Shown here: positions 1 through 35,661 of the stretch, piece by piece
Numbering within the stretch: position 1 is the first letter of the stretch
Layout of the letters: each line of letters starts with the position of its first letter
IMG/VR virus record: IMGVR_UViG_3300030389_001864
Location: 1 to 35,661 of that record
Length of the DNA: 35,661 bases
Direction: 5' to 3' (one strand)
DNA from: a virus
Position numbers and translations under genes: made by a program
The notes under the pieces: model-generated
Told to the model about the DNA's origin: nothing
The model's database searches: none
The model's input: only the letters and a program-made list of their open reading frames with translations

Positions 1-99
1 GCAGACTTGGCAACCTTATCCCTCACTTTGCGGATGGAGGACATGAGTTGATCCTCAGACACTTGCTGCCTTTGTAACGTCTCTGTCTTCCTTAGAGCA
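1..99. repeat. Left copy of terminal redundancy (circular joint)
   Basis: Bases 2-99 are identical to 35564-35661, the last 98 bases of the window. Base 1 is g where its counterpart 35563 is a. A minus-strand gene reads in frame through the joint, so this is best explained as the overlap of a circular assembly or of a circularly permuted genome. The unit genome is then about 35,562 bp. The one-base difference may be a polymorphism or an error. Confidence 0.9.
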
Positions 100-307: not shown

Positions 308-1459
308 ATGGCAGGAGGAAGGGGTAAATATGAGTGGTTGTGGTATGACCCATCCAGAGAGCAGTACCGTGCTCTGATCTATATCAACGGGGTCAGGAAG
401 AGACCCAAGTTGATGACACGGAAAGAGGAACTGTCTCTGATTGAGAACGGGGCAGAGGATTGGGAGATTGAGAAGATCCTGAACGAGAGGTATAAAGAGA
501 TCCTAGATCAGTATGTCAACCCTGCAGAGGGGATGACCCTGAATGCTCTCTTGAATGACTACTGGACCCTGCATCTCAGTAATGAGAAACACGGTGCTCA
601 GTATGAGCTTTACCATAATTTCTGGAGGAAGCAGTTAGGAAAGAGACTGATCCAGGAGATTAAGAAGGGAGACATTGCAGTAGCCAGAGACACACTGAAG
701 GACCGTGCTCCCTCCACTAAGAACAAGTATGTCTACAGTCTCAGTTCTGTCTTTGAGTTTGCAGTCGAGAGAGATTGGTTAGAAGACAACCCTTGCAGAC
801 GGGTCAAGTCCCTCAAGGTGAAAAATGAACGAGACCGATGGTTGTCCACAGAAGAGTTGGACAGACTGTATGAGGAGTGTAAGAACTCCAACAACCCACA
901 TCTTTATCTGGCAGTCAGGATATCCATCCAGACAGGGTGCAGACGGGGGGAACTGTTTCCTAAGAAGTCCTATAAGAAGGACAAAGAGGGCAGACCCCTC
1001 AGAGACCCACAGAAGGTCTTTGACAGTTATGTGGGAGGGTTGAAGTGGGAGAACGTGGACCTAGATAAAGGTCTGCTCCTGCTCACCCACACCAAGACAG
1101 GACTGAACCGCAAGGTTGCAGTCACAGGAGATGCTCTCGATATGCTCAGAGACCTCTCCAAGACACCCTGCATCCACGGATATGTATTCCACATAAACGG
1201 TGTACCCGTGGCAGGGCAGACTCCATTGAGGGAGTCTTTTGAACGAGCGTGTCAACGTGCAGGTCTGGAAGACTTTCACTGGCACGATCTCAGGCATTGT
1301 TGTGCATCCTATCTTGCCCAGAGTAAGGCAACCGATCTGGAGATTGCTATCCAGTTAGGTCACTCCGGGACAGATCTGGTGAAACGCTATGCCCACTTGA
1401 GGGAGGACAACTCCCTGAACCTTGTCGAGAAGATCGAAAGGAGAACAGGTAAATTATGA
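308..1459 (+). CDS. int: Tyrosine-family site-specific integrase
   Basis: This 383-aa tyrosine recombinase would integrate the phage at attP (2189-2430). The catalytic set is visible: R212 in TGCRRGEL, K263, H326-x2-R329 in WHDLRH, H352 in LGHSGT and nucleophile Y361 in KRYAHL. Residues about 75-165 form the core-binding SAM-like domain (it includes LLNDYWTLHL and NPCRRVKSLK). The N-terminal ~70 residues would be the arm-binding domain. An extra ~26-residue, lysine-rich stretch (about 217-243) separates GEL from GLKWENVDL, which are normally nearly contiguous. The start is ATG with AAGGAG eight bases upstream. The stop overlaps the next mini-gene as ATGA, so integrase and repressor share an operon. 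Confidence 0.95.
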   Translation: MAGGRGKYEWLWYDPSREQYRALIYINGVRKRPKLMTRKEELSLIENGAEDWEIEKILNERYKEILDQYVNPAEGMTLNALLNDYWTLHLSNEKHGAQYELYHNFWRKQLGKRLIQEIKKGDIAVARDTLKDRAPSTKNKYVYSLSSVFEFAVERDWLEDNPCRRVKSLKVKNERDRWLSTEELDRLYEECKNSNNPHLYLAVRISIQTGCRRGELFPKKSYKKDKEGRPLRDPQKVFDSYVGGLKWENVDLDKGLLLLTHTKTGLNRKVAVTGDALDMLRDLSKTPCIHGYVFHINGVPVAGQTPLRESFERACQRAGLEDFHWHDLRHCCASYLAQSKATDLEIAIQLGHSGTDLVKRYAHLREDNSLNLVEKIERRTGKL

Positions 1460-1542: not shown

Positions 1543-1700
1543 AATGGATTAATTGCCGTGGAGGTTTTGTTCATTACCATCCACCACCCAAATATTTAAT
1601 TACAGATTCGGCCCCAAAGGGTTCAAGTATTAATTACGCCTATACACTTAGGCGTAGGAAAAAATCTACTACGCAGTACCACCCACCACCAGATAAATGA
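1539..1700 (+). CDS. 53-aa mini-protein with two YHPPP motifs
   Basis: The ORF fills the gap between the 28-aa gene and the repressor, with ATGA overlaps at both ends. The product carries YHPPP twice, near residue 13 (HYHPPPKY) and at the C-terminus (QYHPPPDK), separated by a basic LRRRKK stretch near residue 42. I do not know the family. GGGGGGAAAA just upstream gives a weak ribosome site. It may bind the repressor or a host protein, but nothing in the sequence fixes a function. Confidence 0.55.
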   Translation: MKWINCRGGFVHYHPPPKYLITDSAPKGSSINYAYTLRRRKKSTTQYHPPPDK

Positions 1701-2080
1701 AAGCAAAAACAGAAGAGTCCATAGCACTAGGATTACGTCTAAAGGAAGCCAGAAACAGAACTGGACTGAATCAGGCAGAATTCGCAGAAAAGATAGGAGT
1801 TGCCCGTGACACAATCTCAAGGGCAGAGGTGGGAGCACAATCTCCCACAGAAAAATTATTAAGAAAGATCACAGAAGTTCATGGTATTGACTTTGTGTGG
1901 TTACTGACAGGAGATACTTCATCAAGAGAAAAGGAGGAGTATGACACACTAAAAGAAAAGTATGAGAACCAGGTAAAAACTATTACAGAGCAAAAAGCAA
2001 CCATTGCTGCTCTGGAGAAAACAATAACGATTTTGGCAACACAACTTAGAGGATCTTCTAATGACGAAAGGAGTAGTTAG
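1697..2080 (+). CDS. XRE-family (Cro/CI-like) repressor with coiled-coil tail
   Basis: This 127-aa protein has a lambda-repressor-type helix-turn-helix at about residues 12-66 (LKEARNRTGLNQAEFAEKIG, then TISRAEVG). The C-terminal half (about 78-117) is a heptad-rich coiled coil (EEYDTLKEKYENQVKTITEQ) and would supply dimerisation. There is no S24 autoprotease domain, so RecA-driven self-cleavage is not expected. It is the fourth gene of the integrase operon, coupled to the preceding gene by ATGA. It is the likely master repressor, though a Cro-like or activator role cannot be excluded. Confidence 0.85.
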   Translation: MKAKTEESIALGLRLKEARNRTGLNQAEFAEKIGVARDTISRAEVGAQSPTEKLLRKITEVHGIDFVWLLTGDTSSREKEEYDTLKEKYENQVKTITEQKATIAALEKTITILATQLRGSSNDERSS

Positions 2081-2222
2081 CTTAAAAAAGAAGATTCAGA
2101 AGACATCAAATAAGATTGAAGAGCAGGATGAGAAAATCCAATCTTTAATCTATGTGGTCAACCTTCTGATGGGGGAGATCAGTTCCAAAACTGGTCTCAA
2201 AAATGGAAGTGTTTCGCAATAA
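2061..2222 (+). CDS. Small coiled-coil protein downstream of the repressor
   Basis: This 53-aa ORF starts at ATG 2061, 20 nt inside the repressor gene and in another frame, and ends with TAA 2220-2222. GAGG lies about nine bases upstream. The product has a basic N-terminus (LKKKIQK), a heptad-like helix (NKIEEQDEKIQSLIYVVNLL) and a short polar tail. It resembles the repressor's coiled-coil tail in style, so it may hetero-oligomerise with it, for instance as an antirepressor or co-repressor. That is inference. Its 3' end overlaps the left attP arm element, so integration leaves it at one prophage edge. Confidence 0.6.
   Translation: MTKGVVSLKKKIQKTSNKIEEQDEKIQSLIYVVNLLMGEISSKTGLKNGSVSQ
2189..2216 (+). 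repeat. Left arm element of attP
   Basis: AACTGGTCTCA (2189-2199) matches the ACTGGTCCCA repeats on the other side of the tRNA-like core except for one base. TGGAAGTGTTTCGCA begins at 2204 and is followed by a near copy TGGAAGTGTCGCA beginning at 2242. Direct repeats on both sides of a core are typical integrase arm-type or accessory-factor sites. The assignment rests on position and repetition only. Confidence 0.5.
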
Positions 2223-2262
2223 GTGTGTAATTACAGATACATGGAAGTGTCGCACACTCCCT

Positions 2263-2300
2263 CCTAAATCTTGCGTGTCTACCAATTCCACCACTCTCGC
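2263..2300 (-). other. attP core: 5' half of a tRNA-Leu(UAG) gene
   Basis: Read on the minus strand from 2300, the sequence is the 5' half of a leucine tRNA: acceptor strand GCGAGAG, D-arm with AATTGGTAGAC, and anticodon strand CAAGATTTAGG with anticodon TAG. Similarity stops just past the anticodon, because the bases that should pair with CAAGA are absent and there is no T-arm. This is a core of identity with the host gene, with strand exchange at or near the anticodon loop. It is not a working tRNA gene. It lies downstream of the integrase-repressor operon. Confidence 0.75.
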
Positions 2301-2358
2301 AAAAGAGAAATACCGTGGGATTTCAGTCAGATACCCTGATCACAGGGTGTGAAACTAA

Positions 2359-2430
2359 ACTGGTCCCATACTGGTCCCAAAGTCAAATGGACCAGTTTTG
2401 GGACTATCTCAGTCCCAAATGCAGTCCCAG
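2359..2430. repeat. Right arm of attP: repeated ACTGGTCCCA elements
   Basis: ACTGGTCCCA occurs at 2359-2368 and 2370-2379, an inverted ACCAGT at 2391-2396, and AGTCCCA-type half copies near 2411 and 2423. TGGGACT (2399-2405) and AGTCCCA (2411-2417) form a perfect 7-bp inverted repeat around five bases. These are candidate integrase arm-type sites. The hairpin may also help end the two converging transcription units, although no T-run follows. The array reaches the stop of the endolysin gene. Confidence 0.6.
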
Positions 2431-2432
2431 AA

Positions 2433-2924
2433 TTACTCTGGCAACCCCGGTGTATATCGAACCTTACCCTTGACCCTGGATGCAGTAAGAACCTCCATCT
2501 TGTTGTCTTGGTCCAATGAGTCATAACTGACATGGACCCAACCTGAATTTGGCCCCTTCTTAGGGTCATAGAACTCCAAAATTAATTGTGAAAAACGGAG
2601 ATTGTCTCTGATCCAGACCGCAAGTTCAAGGTTGGATATTTCTTCAGAGATCACCTCAAAATCTGCTGCAGCCTTGGTAAAACTGCAACAATGATCTGAG
2701 GTGTCTGACCCCCCTGCAATTTCATTCACTTCGGGATTTCTGAAACAACTCGAAACACGAACCCGTCCAAAGTGATCTCTCACAGGCTGAAGCACGTTCT
2801 GTGTCAGAGCAGTCATGTTCACCAGTGCTTGAGGTGGTGGATTAAACTGTTCTTCTATTCCGTGCCTGACTGCGATGGTTGAAGCAACCAATTCTTTCAG
2901 AGAAAAATTCTTGGACAGGTTCAT
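2433..2924 (-). CDS. Peptidase M15-type endolysin
   Basis: This 163-aa protein resembles peptidase M15A (D-Ala-D-Ala carboxypeptidase/L-Ala-D-Glu endopeptidase) lysins, which cut the peptide stems of peptidoglycan. The N-terminus NFSLKELVAS and the RVSSCFRNPEVN segment are typical. Zinc ligands would be H78, D88 and H131 (GWVHVSY). The frame is open upstream to 3029, but ATG 2924 is chosen because the domain begins there and AGGGA precedes it, directly after the preceding gene's stop. There is no signal peptide, so export would depend on a holin. It is the last gene of the late operon. Confidence 0.85.
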   Translation of the reverse strand: MNLSKNFSLKELVASTIAVRHGIEEQFNPPPQALVNMTALTQNVLQPVRDHFGRVRVSSCFRNPEVNEIAGGSDTSDHCCSFTKAAADFEVISEEISNLELAVWIRDNLRFSQLILEFYDPKKGPNSGWVHVSYDSLDQDNKMEVLTASRVKGKVRYTPGLPE

Positions 2925-2928
2925 ATTA

Positions 2929-3195
2929 CTATCCCTTGATAAGATCCAAGACGGATTTGTGACCATGAGAGTTGTCACCGTCCACAGCACTGTCAAGTGC
3001 TTCTCGTACTTCTTTGGGAAGTTTATCAAGATGTGGTTCTAGGTGTTCTGCTGCTAACGATTGTGCTTTATCAGCGACAATATCTTTCAGCATGTTAGCC
3101 ACGAATGGCAGGACCAGATTGAGCATAACTTCTTCCTTTCTTTGTTTGGGGTTAATGAAGTCATAAAAAGTCTCAATTATTTTTGTTAAGTTCAT
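2929..3195 (-). CDS. Small lysis-cassette protein of unknown function
   Basis: The 88-aa product starts at ATG 3195 behind a very strong GGAGGAGG site and overlaps the preceding holin candidate by 23 nt. A modestly hydrophobic helix (MLNLVLPFVANMLKDIV, residues 24-40) is followed by a polar helical segment with EHLEPHLDKLPKEVREAL. It could be a membrane-associated lysis accessory protein. A shorter start at M24 is possible. I do not recognise the family, and the role is suggested only by its place between holin and endolysin genes. Confidence 0.7.
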   Translation of the reverse strand: MNLTKIIETFYDFINPKQRKEEVMLNLVLPFVANMLKDIVADKAQSLAAEHLEPHLDKLPKEVREALDSAVDGDNSHGHKSVLDLIKG

Positions 3196-24971: not shown

Positions 24972-26486
24972 TTAGTTAAGTTCCCACCATTCCAATTCAT
25001 CTTCTTCCTCCACCCTCTGTACCTTTGCCAACATATCGGACTCCATCTCCCTCTCCAGAGCATCAAAGTAGTCCTGTGACCCAAACTCAGGCTTTGGAGT
25101 CTGCTCCCTGTGGAGGTAGTGCAGTGCTTCTCTCCACGCATAGAGAGCAGCATCACAACAATGGTTCTCATTGTTCTCATTCTCAATGAACCTGCCCTTC
25201 TCCATCTGGTTCTGATCCCACTCCAAGAGCACCAACTCATCCACATACTGCTCCGTCTTCGGACCATGACAGATCTGAATCCTCCCCCTCTCAAAGTCTG
25301 AGTTCATCAACCGTATGTGATCTAACTTCCTCGACTTCTCTGCAGGGAACAGATTCAACTCAAACCTTTTGTTCATCTCCTCACAAACCATTTTACCGAG
25401 ACCCCCGGTGTCTACGACACTCCTCACGAACCTGTACCTTTCTTCGAGTCTCTTAATCTTTTCCGCAATCTCTGCAATGGAGAGATGTGGAGCTTTTTCG
25501 GCATGTACTGCATAGACCTCTGGGACATCCTCTGAAAACGCAAATACCACGAAAGCAGTGCTATCCTCATATCCCAGATCCACTCCGAGTACGAAATCCC
25601 AGTGACTCTCTTCCAAGTCTGCTTCCACCAAGTTCTTCTCAGGAGAGAACCTGTAAACCATGCTCTCTTCATCCCTTGTCCACTCTCCAAGATACTCCCT
25701 CCTGAATATTGGTGTCTCATCACTCCACCCATTCTCCTCCTTCCTCCGTGCTAACCAATCTCCTGCACCCGGAAGATGGGGGTTGTCCAAAAGTGTCCAG
25801 TTGTGCCTACTCCAAGACGATGCTTCAAAAACATCTGCATCATAGAAGTACCCAGAACTGGAAGCATTCGGTGTCCCAAACATCCAAATAGACCCATCCA
25901 AGTCCAATGTCGCAGGTTCCAATACATCCTCAATCAACGTGTGTAAAATAGAAGTTCTCATACTCTGGGCTTCGTCTATCACACATAGCGAATACTTCGG
26001 TCCTCTCCACTTATCCACCTCATCCCTGTCCTGTGCTCCACCAAGTACAATCGAACTCCCATTACTCAACTTCACCGTCAGATCGTTCTGCCTGAACTCT
26101 AAGTCTAACCCAAATGCCCTGTCCATCTCTCCCAAAGTGTTCCACAAGATCCTCCTCGCATTCTTGATCGAGAGGGTTATGTAAGGACACATGATCCCTG
26201 GAGTTGAGATTGCTGCACTGAGTAACCCCACTGCTGCCAAATGTGTCTTTCCTGCTCTCCTTGAACACCGTGCTAACTTCTTCTTCCTCTCATCTCCAAT
26301 AAAACCCGTTTGTGAAGGAAACAGACTCCTCTGCAACCCCTCACCCTTTAGCCTTAGCTCCTCCTGCTTTCTTTGCTTTTCCCGACTTCTGAACAACATC
26401 TGCTCCAGAAGTGCTCTTTGCTGTGGACTGAACCCCAGATCGTTCTTGACTGCCCTCTTCTTCTTTGACCCTGACTTTGTAGGCAT
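24972..26486 (-). CDS. terL: Terminase large subunit
   Basis: This 504-aa protein is the ATP-driven DNA packaging motor and nuclease. Walker A is CSRRAGKT (74-81), Walker B is LCVIDE (167-172), and the coupling motif is MFGTPN (202-207). RNase H-like nuclease acidic residues are D303 (LGVDLG), D359 (VVDTGG) and D445 (NHCCDAALYAW). GGAG lies seven bases before ATG 26486. The first 146 nt overlap the upstream gene in another frame. The subtype suggests a headful packager, consistent with circular permutation. Confidence 0.95.
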   Translation of the reverse strand: MPTKSGSKKKRAVKNDLGFSPQQRALLEQMLFRSREKQRKQEELRLKGEGLQRSLFPSQTGFIGDERKKKLARCSRRAGKTHLAAVGLLSAAISTPGIMCPYITLSIKNARRILWNTLGEMDRAFGLDLEFRQNDLTVKLSNGSSIVLGGAQDRDEVDKWRGPKYSLCVIDEAQSMRTSILHTLIEDVLEPATLDLDGSIWMFGTPNASSSGYFYDADVFEASSWSRHNWTLLDNPHLPGAGDWLARRKEENGWSDETPIFRREYLGEWTRDEESMVYRFSPEKNLVEADLEESHWDFVLGVDLGYEDSTAFVVFAFSEDVPEVYAVHAEKAPHLSIAEIAEKIKRLEERYRFVRSVVDTGGLGKMVCEEMNKRFELNLFPAEKSRKLDHIRLMNSDFERGRIQICHGPKTEQYVDELVLLEWDQNQMEKGRFIENENNENHCCDAALYAWREALHYLHREQTPKPEFGSQDYFDALEREMESDMLAKVQRVEEEDELEWWELN

Positions 26487-35173: not shown

Positions 35174-35575
35174 TTAACCTGCCTCGTATTGATTTAACTC
35201 GTTGCGTAATTTTTTAATCTTCTTCCAAGTGTCATCACGGATAATTCTGACCACCTCCTGAACGTCCTCGATGGATCTCACAATGAAGTACCACCCGTTC
35301 TGGTCTTTGACTTTCCTCTCAAACTCTTTTTGAGTTTTGCTTTGCCCCTTACCTTTCCGTTTCACTTCCAACCACACACCGATACTGATGCCCTCTGTCA
35401 TCACGCTCATGTGGATGTCTGCCATGCCCACATTGGTGGAGGGTCTGAATCTTCCATCTTTCATTGGGACTCCGATCACATTGATTCTGAACATCTGGAC
35501 CCCCTCCTGCCACTGACCCCATGAGAGGATGGATGCCTGGATCTGTCCCTCAGAAGGATTAAACAGACTTGGCAA
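35174..35575 (-). CDS. VRR-NUC domain nuclease
   Basis: The 133-aa product has the VRR-NUC core: E9-x-Q (SEGQIQASILSW), G-x-x-D53 (VGMADIHMS), E70-x-K72 (WLEVKRKG), then S79-x2-Q82 (SKTQKEFERK). This is a PD-(D/E)XK fold related to Holliday-junction and structure-specific nucleases. The start appears to be TTG 35575, as no in-frame ATG precedes the domain; GAGG is a few bases upstream. It probably resolves replication or packaging intermediates. Confidence 0.8.
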   Translation of the reverse strand: MPSLFNPSEGQIQASILSWGQWQEGVQMFRINVIGVPMKDGRFRPSTNVGMADIHMSVMTEGISIGVWLEVKRKGKGQSKTQKEFERKVKDQNGWYFIVRSIEDVQEVVRIIRDDTWKKIKKLRNELNQYEAG

Positions 35576-35661
35576 CCTTATCCCTCACTTTGCGGATGGA
35601 GGACATGAGTTGATCCTCAGACACTTGCTGCCTTTGTAACGTCTCTGTCTTCCTTAGAGCA
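35559..35661 (-). CDS. Right-end part of the 63-aa joint-spanning gene
   Basis: This is the 3' part of the gene listed at 1-188, read at the right end: ...KVRDKVAKSV with TAA at 35559-35561. The full gene is read only if the ends are joined. In this copy the penultimate codon region has a at 35563 where the left end has g; only this copy includes the stop. Confidence 0.75.
   Translation of the reverse strand, partial: ALRKTETLQRQQVSEDQLMSSIRKVRDKVAKSV
35564..35661. repeat. Right copy of terminal redundancy
   Basis: These 98 bases are identical to bases 2-99. See the left copy. They lie within coding sequence and show no special structure, which fits an assembly overlap of a circular molecule better than a dedicated terminal repeat. 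Confidence 0.9.

Follow-up and report, generated by a model that had tools for sequence, protein, structure and literature searches.

Putative attachment site of a SAR324 phage carries the 5' half of the host tRNA-Leu(UAG) gene

The marine viral DNA of IMG/VR record IMGVR_UViG_3300030389_001864 (35,661 nt, the whole of which is referred to as the window) carries the 5' half of a leucine tRNA gene close to a tyrosine-recombinase integrase gene. We propose, with a probability of about 0.85, that a temperate phage of SAR324 uses this site as its phage attachment site (attP), with a tyrosine integrase acting at the anticodon loop of the tRNA-Leu(UAG) gene in the host and the 5' half retained by the phage. 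The observations are a 39-nt identity with the host gene, a complete bacterial attachment site (attB) in the host, arm-like repeats around the core and the outcome of junctions modelled in silico. The site has several features of a tRNA-targeting attP of the 5'-fragment class, namely a nearby tyrosine integrase, a core that matches a host tRNA gene over its 5' part and stops at a usual crossover loop, and in silico rebuilding of that tRNA with the phage 5' flank.

An earlier note on this DNA had read minus-strand positions 2300-2263 as the 5' half of a leucine tRNA. This assignment was borne out, and the half proved to be one base longer, covering 39 nt between acceptor base 1 and the end of the anticodon loop (2262-2300, minus strand), with 39/39 identity to the tRNA-Leu(TAG) genes of three SAR324 loci (L012, L013 and L014). 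Identity with the three genes stops exactly at the end of the 7-nt anticodon loop, TTTAGGA (2262-2268, minus strand), which is presumed to be the 7-bp overlap region in which crossover takes place, given the end of the identity and the overlap usual for tyrosine recombinases. No complete tRNA, and hence no phage-encoded full tRNA of the same isotype, was found when ARAGORN was run over the whole window. The bacterial search for the exact 38-nt core that the earlier note had proposed was performed against genome_contigs (84,980 species) and matched only three genomes, all from SAR324 and each with a complete, uninterrupted tRNA-Leu(TAG) gene. As these are the only exact matches in the collection and each lies inside a complete tRNA-Leu(UAG) gene, the core is not a chance match. 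Two of the three records are titled SAR324, and the third (L012) is titled Deltaproteobacteria SP68; its genome (G001) is grouped in one phylum set with the SAR324 genome G002, and the gene neighborhood of L012 matches that of L013. The earlier note would have been refuted by a host attB with identity up to the tRNA 3' end; identity does not reach that far, in agreement with the claim that the attP-like site holds the 5' half. Through the exact match, a phage group without cultured members is tied to the SAR324 lineage, which is widespread in the ocean; literature searches returned no title on such a SAR324 phage.

The prophage junctions attL and attR were modelled by fusing the flanking DNA of phage and host through the core, and ARAGORN was run on the joins. 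A full tRNA-Leu(tag) was predicted in the phage-5'/host-3' joins for 3/3 hosts and in the host-5'/phage joins for 0/3. The tRNA prediction across the junctions suggested in the earlier note therefore agrees with its expectation that the hybrid tRNA would have phage DNA upstream. Because only the phage-upstream junction rebuilds the tRNA, the native promoter would give way to the 132 bp that separate the endolysin stop from the core (2301-2432, minus strand), and this stretch behind the endolysin gene would form the 5' flank of the rebuilt tRNA in the host.

The layout of the site is common to two other viral contigs, L008 (on the same contig as L002) and L006, the latter a 4.2-kb fragment with no integrase match. 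The core sequence is unchanged across the window and both contigs, whereas the window and L006 are identical at only 22/50 positions in the 50 nt upstream of the core and at 39/70 in the 70 nt upstream. At the upstream identity level, the chance of 39 identical bases is about 1.2e-10, a figure that assumes independent sites and serves as a guide only. L008 is a near copy of the window in this region (49/50 upstream positions identical) and thus says little on constraint. Comparison with L006 indicates that constraint on the core extends to acceptor base 1, about 30 nt past the presumed crossover, and identity out to the acceptor end is the pattern that selection for a functional rebuilt tRNA would leave.

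Repeats on both sides of the core, as the earlier note had claimed, are also present. The exact sequence TGGGACCAGT occurs only twice in the window (2359-2368 and 2370-2379, minus strand), and these two copies, 11 nt or one helical turn apart, make up arm-like sites on the P side (2357-2379). A one-mismatch copy of TGGGACCAGT lies across the core at 2190-2199, within the P'-side arm-like sites (TGAGACCAGTTTTGGAACT; 2181-2199, minus strand) identified by repeat search and comparison with relatives. In addition, arm-like sites on the P side are present in either orientation (GGACCAGTTTTGGGACT, AGTCCCAAA and AGTCCCAGA) at 2389-2432, as inverted repeats I1, I4, I9 and I10. The whole repeat set, including these inverted copies, is kept in L008 and L006. 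One-mismatch matches to TGGGACCAGT over the window number 7 against 4.79 expected, which is unremarkable as a number, and the support for the repeats comes instead from the clustering of the exact copies at the core and their conservation in two related contigs. From position and conservation, the repeats are probably integrase arm sites. A palindrome, ACCCTGTGATCAGGGT (2333-2348), lies between the arm sites and the core; it occurs once in the window, has one change in L008 and is not kept in L006. Another short sequence, TGAAATCCC (2317-2325, minus strand), is placed 16 nt upstream of the core in the window, L008 and L006 alike, with constant spacing in L006 even though the surrounding sequence differs there.

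Host range was followed up in 52 genomes of the SAR324 phylum, all partial or diverged. The core was matched within 2 mismatches in 18/52 genomes, as a single copy in each, and by eye a normal 3' half continues after the core in all 18. The matches comprise the three exact ones, one that differs at a single position of the D-arm region (G014) and 14 with a CCAGA anticodon stem. A CAAGA core such as that of the window, once inserted in a CCAGA host, would give an anticodon stem with one mismatched position, which makes a host of the CAAGA type the more probable. Leucine tRNAs were examined in 9 of the 52 genomes, and each has one UAG gene; G003, for instance, also has GAG, CAG and UAA genes.

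Two scans of viral_contigs for the core identified 10 other viral contigs with the same tRNA-Leu(UAG) 5' half in two architectures. None of the 10 continues with a tRNA 3' half after the core, and ARAGORN predicted no tRNA at these places; a tRNA-Tyr was predicted in L010, away from the core site. The first architecture is that of L008 and L006. The second, found in eight T7-like contigs (L005, L007, L009, L010, L011, L066, L067 and L068), consists of an integrase gene or its remnant followed by the core on the same strand. In 7/8 of these contigs, 68-97 nt separate the end of the integrase gene from the core downstream of it, and L009 (2156-2344, minus strand) has an intact 5'-half core with just a C-terminal integrase remnant of 62-64 aa. 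A T7-like RNA polymerase follows the core in L005, L067 and L068 by Pfam match and in L007, L009, L011 and L066 by size or reading of the open reading frame (ORF). The L067 and L068 cores have the CCAGA stem of 14/18 SAR324 matches, and the L066 core has the same one-base variant as G014; viral core variants follow host alleles.

On this basis, crossover by the tyrosine integrase would fall in the anticodon loop of tRNA-Leu(UAG) in the host. A dead 5' half would stay behind the host promoter, beside the phage repressor and integrase genes (antisense), and the whole tRNA would be rebuilt at the other prophage end, behind the endolysin gene and arm sites. The rebuilt tRNA would then be transcribed from phage DNA, and in a lysogen it might be expressed via a non-consensus promoter in 2301-2432 or by read-through from late genes. 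However, several results weigh against integration at this site with expression from phage DNA. Among the 52 SAR324 genomes, attB was unmatched at up to 2 mismatches in 34, a second core copy within 2 mismatches, which would mark a lysogen, was found in none, and no close integrase was detected (the best-scoring segment had 43% identity). The major capsid protein had no match in this set, the large terminase subunit (TerL) had only weak matches in 3/52, and prophages with this integrase, which the earlier note had suggested looking for, were not found there. By consensus, no sigma-70-like promoter was found at 1440-2600, which includes the region upstream of the core, and the idea in the earlier note that the phage might supply a promoter did not gain backing. 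A simple -35/-10 score for the 70 nt before the core was above shuffles (P < 0.05) in 0/11 viral rows, yet in just 4/18 host rows, so its power is low and the viral result is uninformative rather than negative. Since no prophage was found, use of the site is inferred, and in view of the promoter result as well, promoter supply by the phage is no more than a reasonable inference. By eye, TCGACA-N17-TAnnAT precedes the tRNA in many host rows and is not seen in the phages. Such sites pose a testable question, namely how a lysogen expresses a tRNA whose promoter is swapped for phage DNA.

The rebuilt tRNA may instead not be meaningfully expressed, with integration transient or rare, as has been reported of T7-like cyanophages, and the 5' half a mere recombination target. 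We regard this as possible but doubtful; it would accommodate the lack of lysogens among the 52 genomes and of a promoter pattern at 1440-2600, and cyanophages with first-half tRNA-Leu sites integrate without stable lysogens having been obtained in the work described (PMC8776855), but it fits less well with a repressor-like gene beside attP and with identity to acceptor base 1, beyond the expected need of recombination, while the flanks diverge. A further proposal seems unlikely to us, namely that the prophage, by holding the 5' half behind its lysis gene, swaps the promoter of the host's apparently only tRNA-Leu(UAG) gene and brings it under phage late transcription, while its integrase gene stays at the opposite prophage end; if true, the phage would set the supply of tRNA-Leu(UAG) during lysogeny, with a surge on induction.

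The half could also act as an RNA during infection, as a tRNA-half decoy or regulator, and not as an attachment site. A short conserved hairpin (GGGAGTGTGCGACACTTCC; 2243-2261, minus strand) directly follows the anticodon loop in attP, and late transcripts could enter the half, as no terminator-like pattern was found at 1440-2600. The hairpin is small (z -2.17 for 2244-2262), folding of the RNA does not stand out (z -1.22, -1.99 and -0.85), and a role as RNA is made very improbable by the arm-like repeats on both sides, the adjacent integrase, the exact match to a single host group and the T7-like contigs, in which this half comes right after the integrase gene. Least probable is that the half is a remnant of a decayed complete phage tRNA gene. 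The pelagiphages HTVC011P and HTVC041P do hold a complete tRNA-Leu(UAG) next to the integrase gene, but here the anticodon loop marks the precise end of the identity in the three relatives, and the half shows no damage.

The integrase gene (308-1459, plus strand; 383 aa; PF00589, E 1.1e-21; phrog_1, E 7.8e-59) lies beyond the anticodon end of the core, on the other strand, and is followed by a gene for a helix-turn-helix repressor-like protein (1697-2080, plus strand; 127 aa; HTH_3, E 3.6e-13; phrog_2328). On the upstream side, the last minus-strand gene before attP encodes a Peptidase M15-like endolysin (2433-3029; phrog_894, E 6.1e-34; PF08291, E 7.5e-11). To the right of the endolysin are more minus-strand ORFs, structural and packaging genes among them, up to TerL at 24972-26486. 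A SU10-type adaptor was matched over its cut-off (PF24175, E 5e-11), and the portal and major capsid protein matches are below curated cut-offs. The two ends of the window (1-99 and 35563-35661) repeat each other over 98 identical bases, or 99 if a mismatch at base 1 is counted, which makes it probable that the assembly, of about 35.56 kb, is circular and complete. A codon benefit for the phage was also considered and set aside, as the frequency of CTA+CTG per 1000 codons was 25.7 for a selection of 15 late ORFs, 23.0 for six host genes of L013 and 47.1 for one gene of L014, giving no sign of a greater need for tRNA-Leu(UAG) and no added weight to promoter supply.

The window integrase is ~24% identical to those integrases of the T7-like contigs that matched it. 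Similar integrases in SAR324 genomes were represented by eight high-scoring regions (L057-L064), together with L065. A complete tRNA (two Arg, one Ser and three Lys) lies just upstream of a same-strand integrase gene in 6/8 regions, the ordinary 3'-fragment layout, and no tRNA was found upstream of the integrase in L062 and L064. In a virus with a 27% identical integrase (L004), an apparent tRNA 3' half adjoins the integrase gene. From these layouts, the window integrase has relatives that use the ordinary half. L065 (G026:C12:17467-17829) is a decayed integrase fragment with two stops, ~100 nt past the 3' end of tRNA-Leu(UAG) and on the opposite strand, and another element may have used the tRNA-Leu(UAG) of that SAR324 genome. 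In an integrase tree of 25 rows, the 5'-half label needs 3 changes, a count that is flawed for 2/10 labelled rows, since HTVC011P and HTVC041P were labelled 5'-half yet carry complete tRNAs; P-SSP7 also forms a long branch, and the tool warns on its join with the pelagiphages. A single clade of the window group and the SAR324 T7-like group was not rejected in the approximately unbiased (AU) test (p-AU 0.186), and neither was a grouping of the window with the SAR324-genome integrases, mostly of the 3' type (p-AU 0.264), so the tree is compatible with both a single and a repeated origin of the 5' habit.

Carriage of a tRNA 5' half is not new. It is the minority, with 159 islands holding a 5' tDNA fragment against 3,760 with a 3' fragment in Islander (PMC4383910), and the earlier note over-rated the rarity, as this is a documented class that includes cyanophages (PMC8776855). 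The Islander 5'-fragment islands have the same outcome class as the window site, a likeness drawn from class counts. In bacteria, the rebuilt tRNA is described as expressed from its original promoter with very few exceptions, and archaeal pTN3-like integrases are described as using the 5' half with expression from the integrase promoter, a situation seldom met in bacteria (PMC8371274, PMC5495485). According to the same sources, pTN3-like integrases resemble the window in using a tRNA-Leu 5' half (41 bp) and in rebuilding a tRNA parted from its promoter, but unlike the window they provide the integrase promoter and their integration splits the integrase gene. In mycobacteriophages, tRNA-dependent lysogeny also endangers a host tRNA gene; however, the stretch common to attP and attB is only ~10 bp long, and a tRNA carried by the phage is supplied instead of a rebuilt host one (PMC10865867).

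A close likeness is to T7-like cyanophages, whose attP motifs match the first half of tRNA-Leu and for which integration at such sites was detected by polymerase chain reaction in S-TIP37 and P-SSP7 (PMC8776855). The P-SSP7 half ends in the anticodon loop, as does that of the window, but corresponds to tRNA-Leu(UAA) rather than UAG, and the integrase gene, so named in PMC8776855 and annotated 'conserved hypothetical' in its record, reads towards it. The window differs in having its integrase gene on the far side of the half and on the opposite strand, a repressor-like gene, and structural proteins that appear SU10-like. The pelagiphages HTVC011P and HTVC041P seemed alike at first but carry a complete tRNA-Leu(UAG) (L015 1997-2081 and L016 1997-2080), where no feature is annotated. 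The T7-like contigs share with the window the 5' half only of the same tRNA-Leu(UAG) and differ in having the integrase gene directly upstream of it in 7/8 cases. In integrase-fed 5'-half sites of the P-SSP7 and pTN3 type, the integrase gene is directly upstream of the rebuilt tRNA and on the same strand, an arrangement absent from the window. The window therefore adds one more phage group to the users of a tRNA-Leu 5' half, a known but uncommon class, and its distinguishing point is the geometry, with the rebuilt tRNA placed behind the endolysin gene and the integrase and repressor genes at the other junction.
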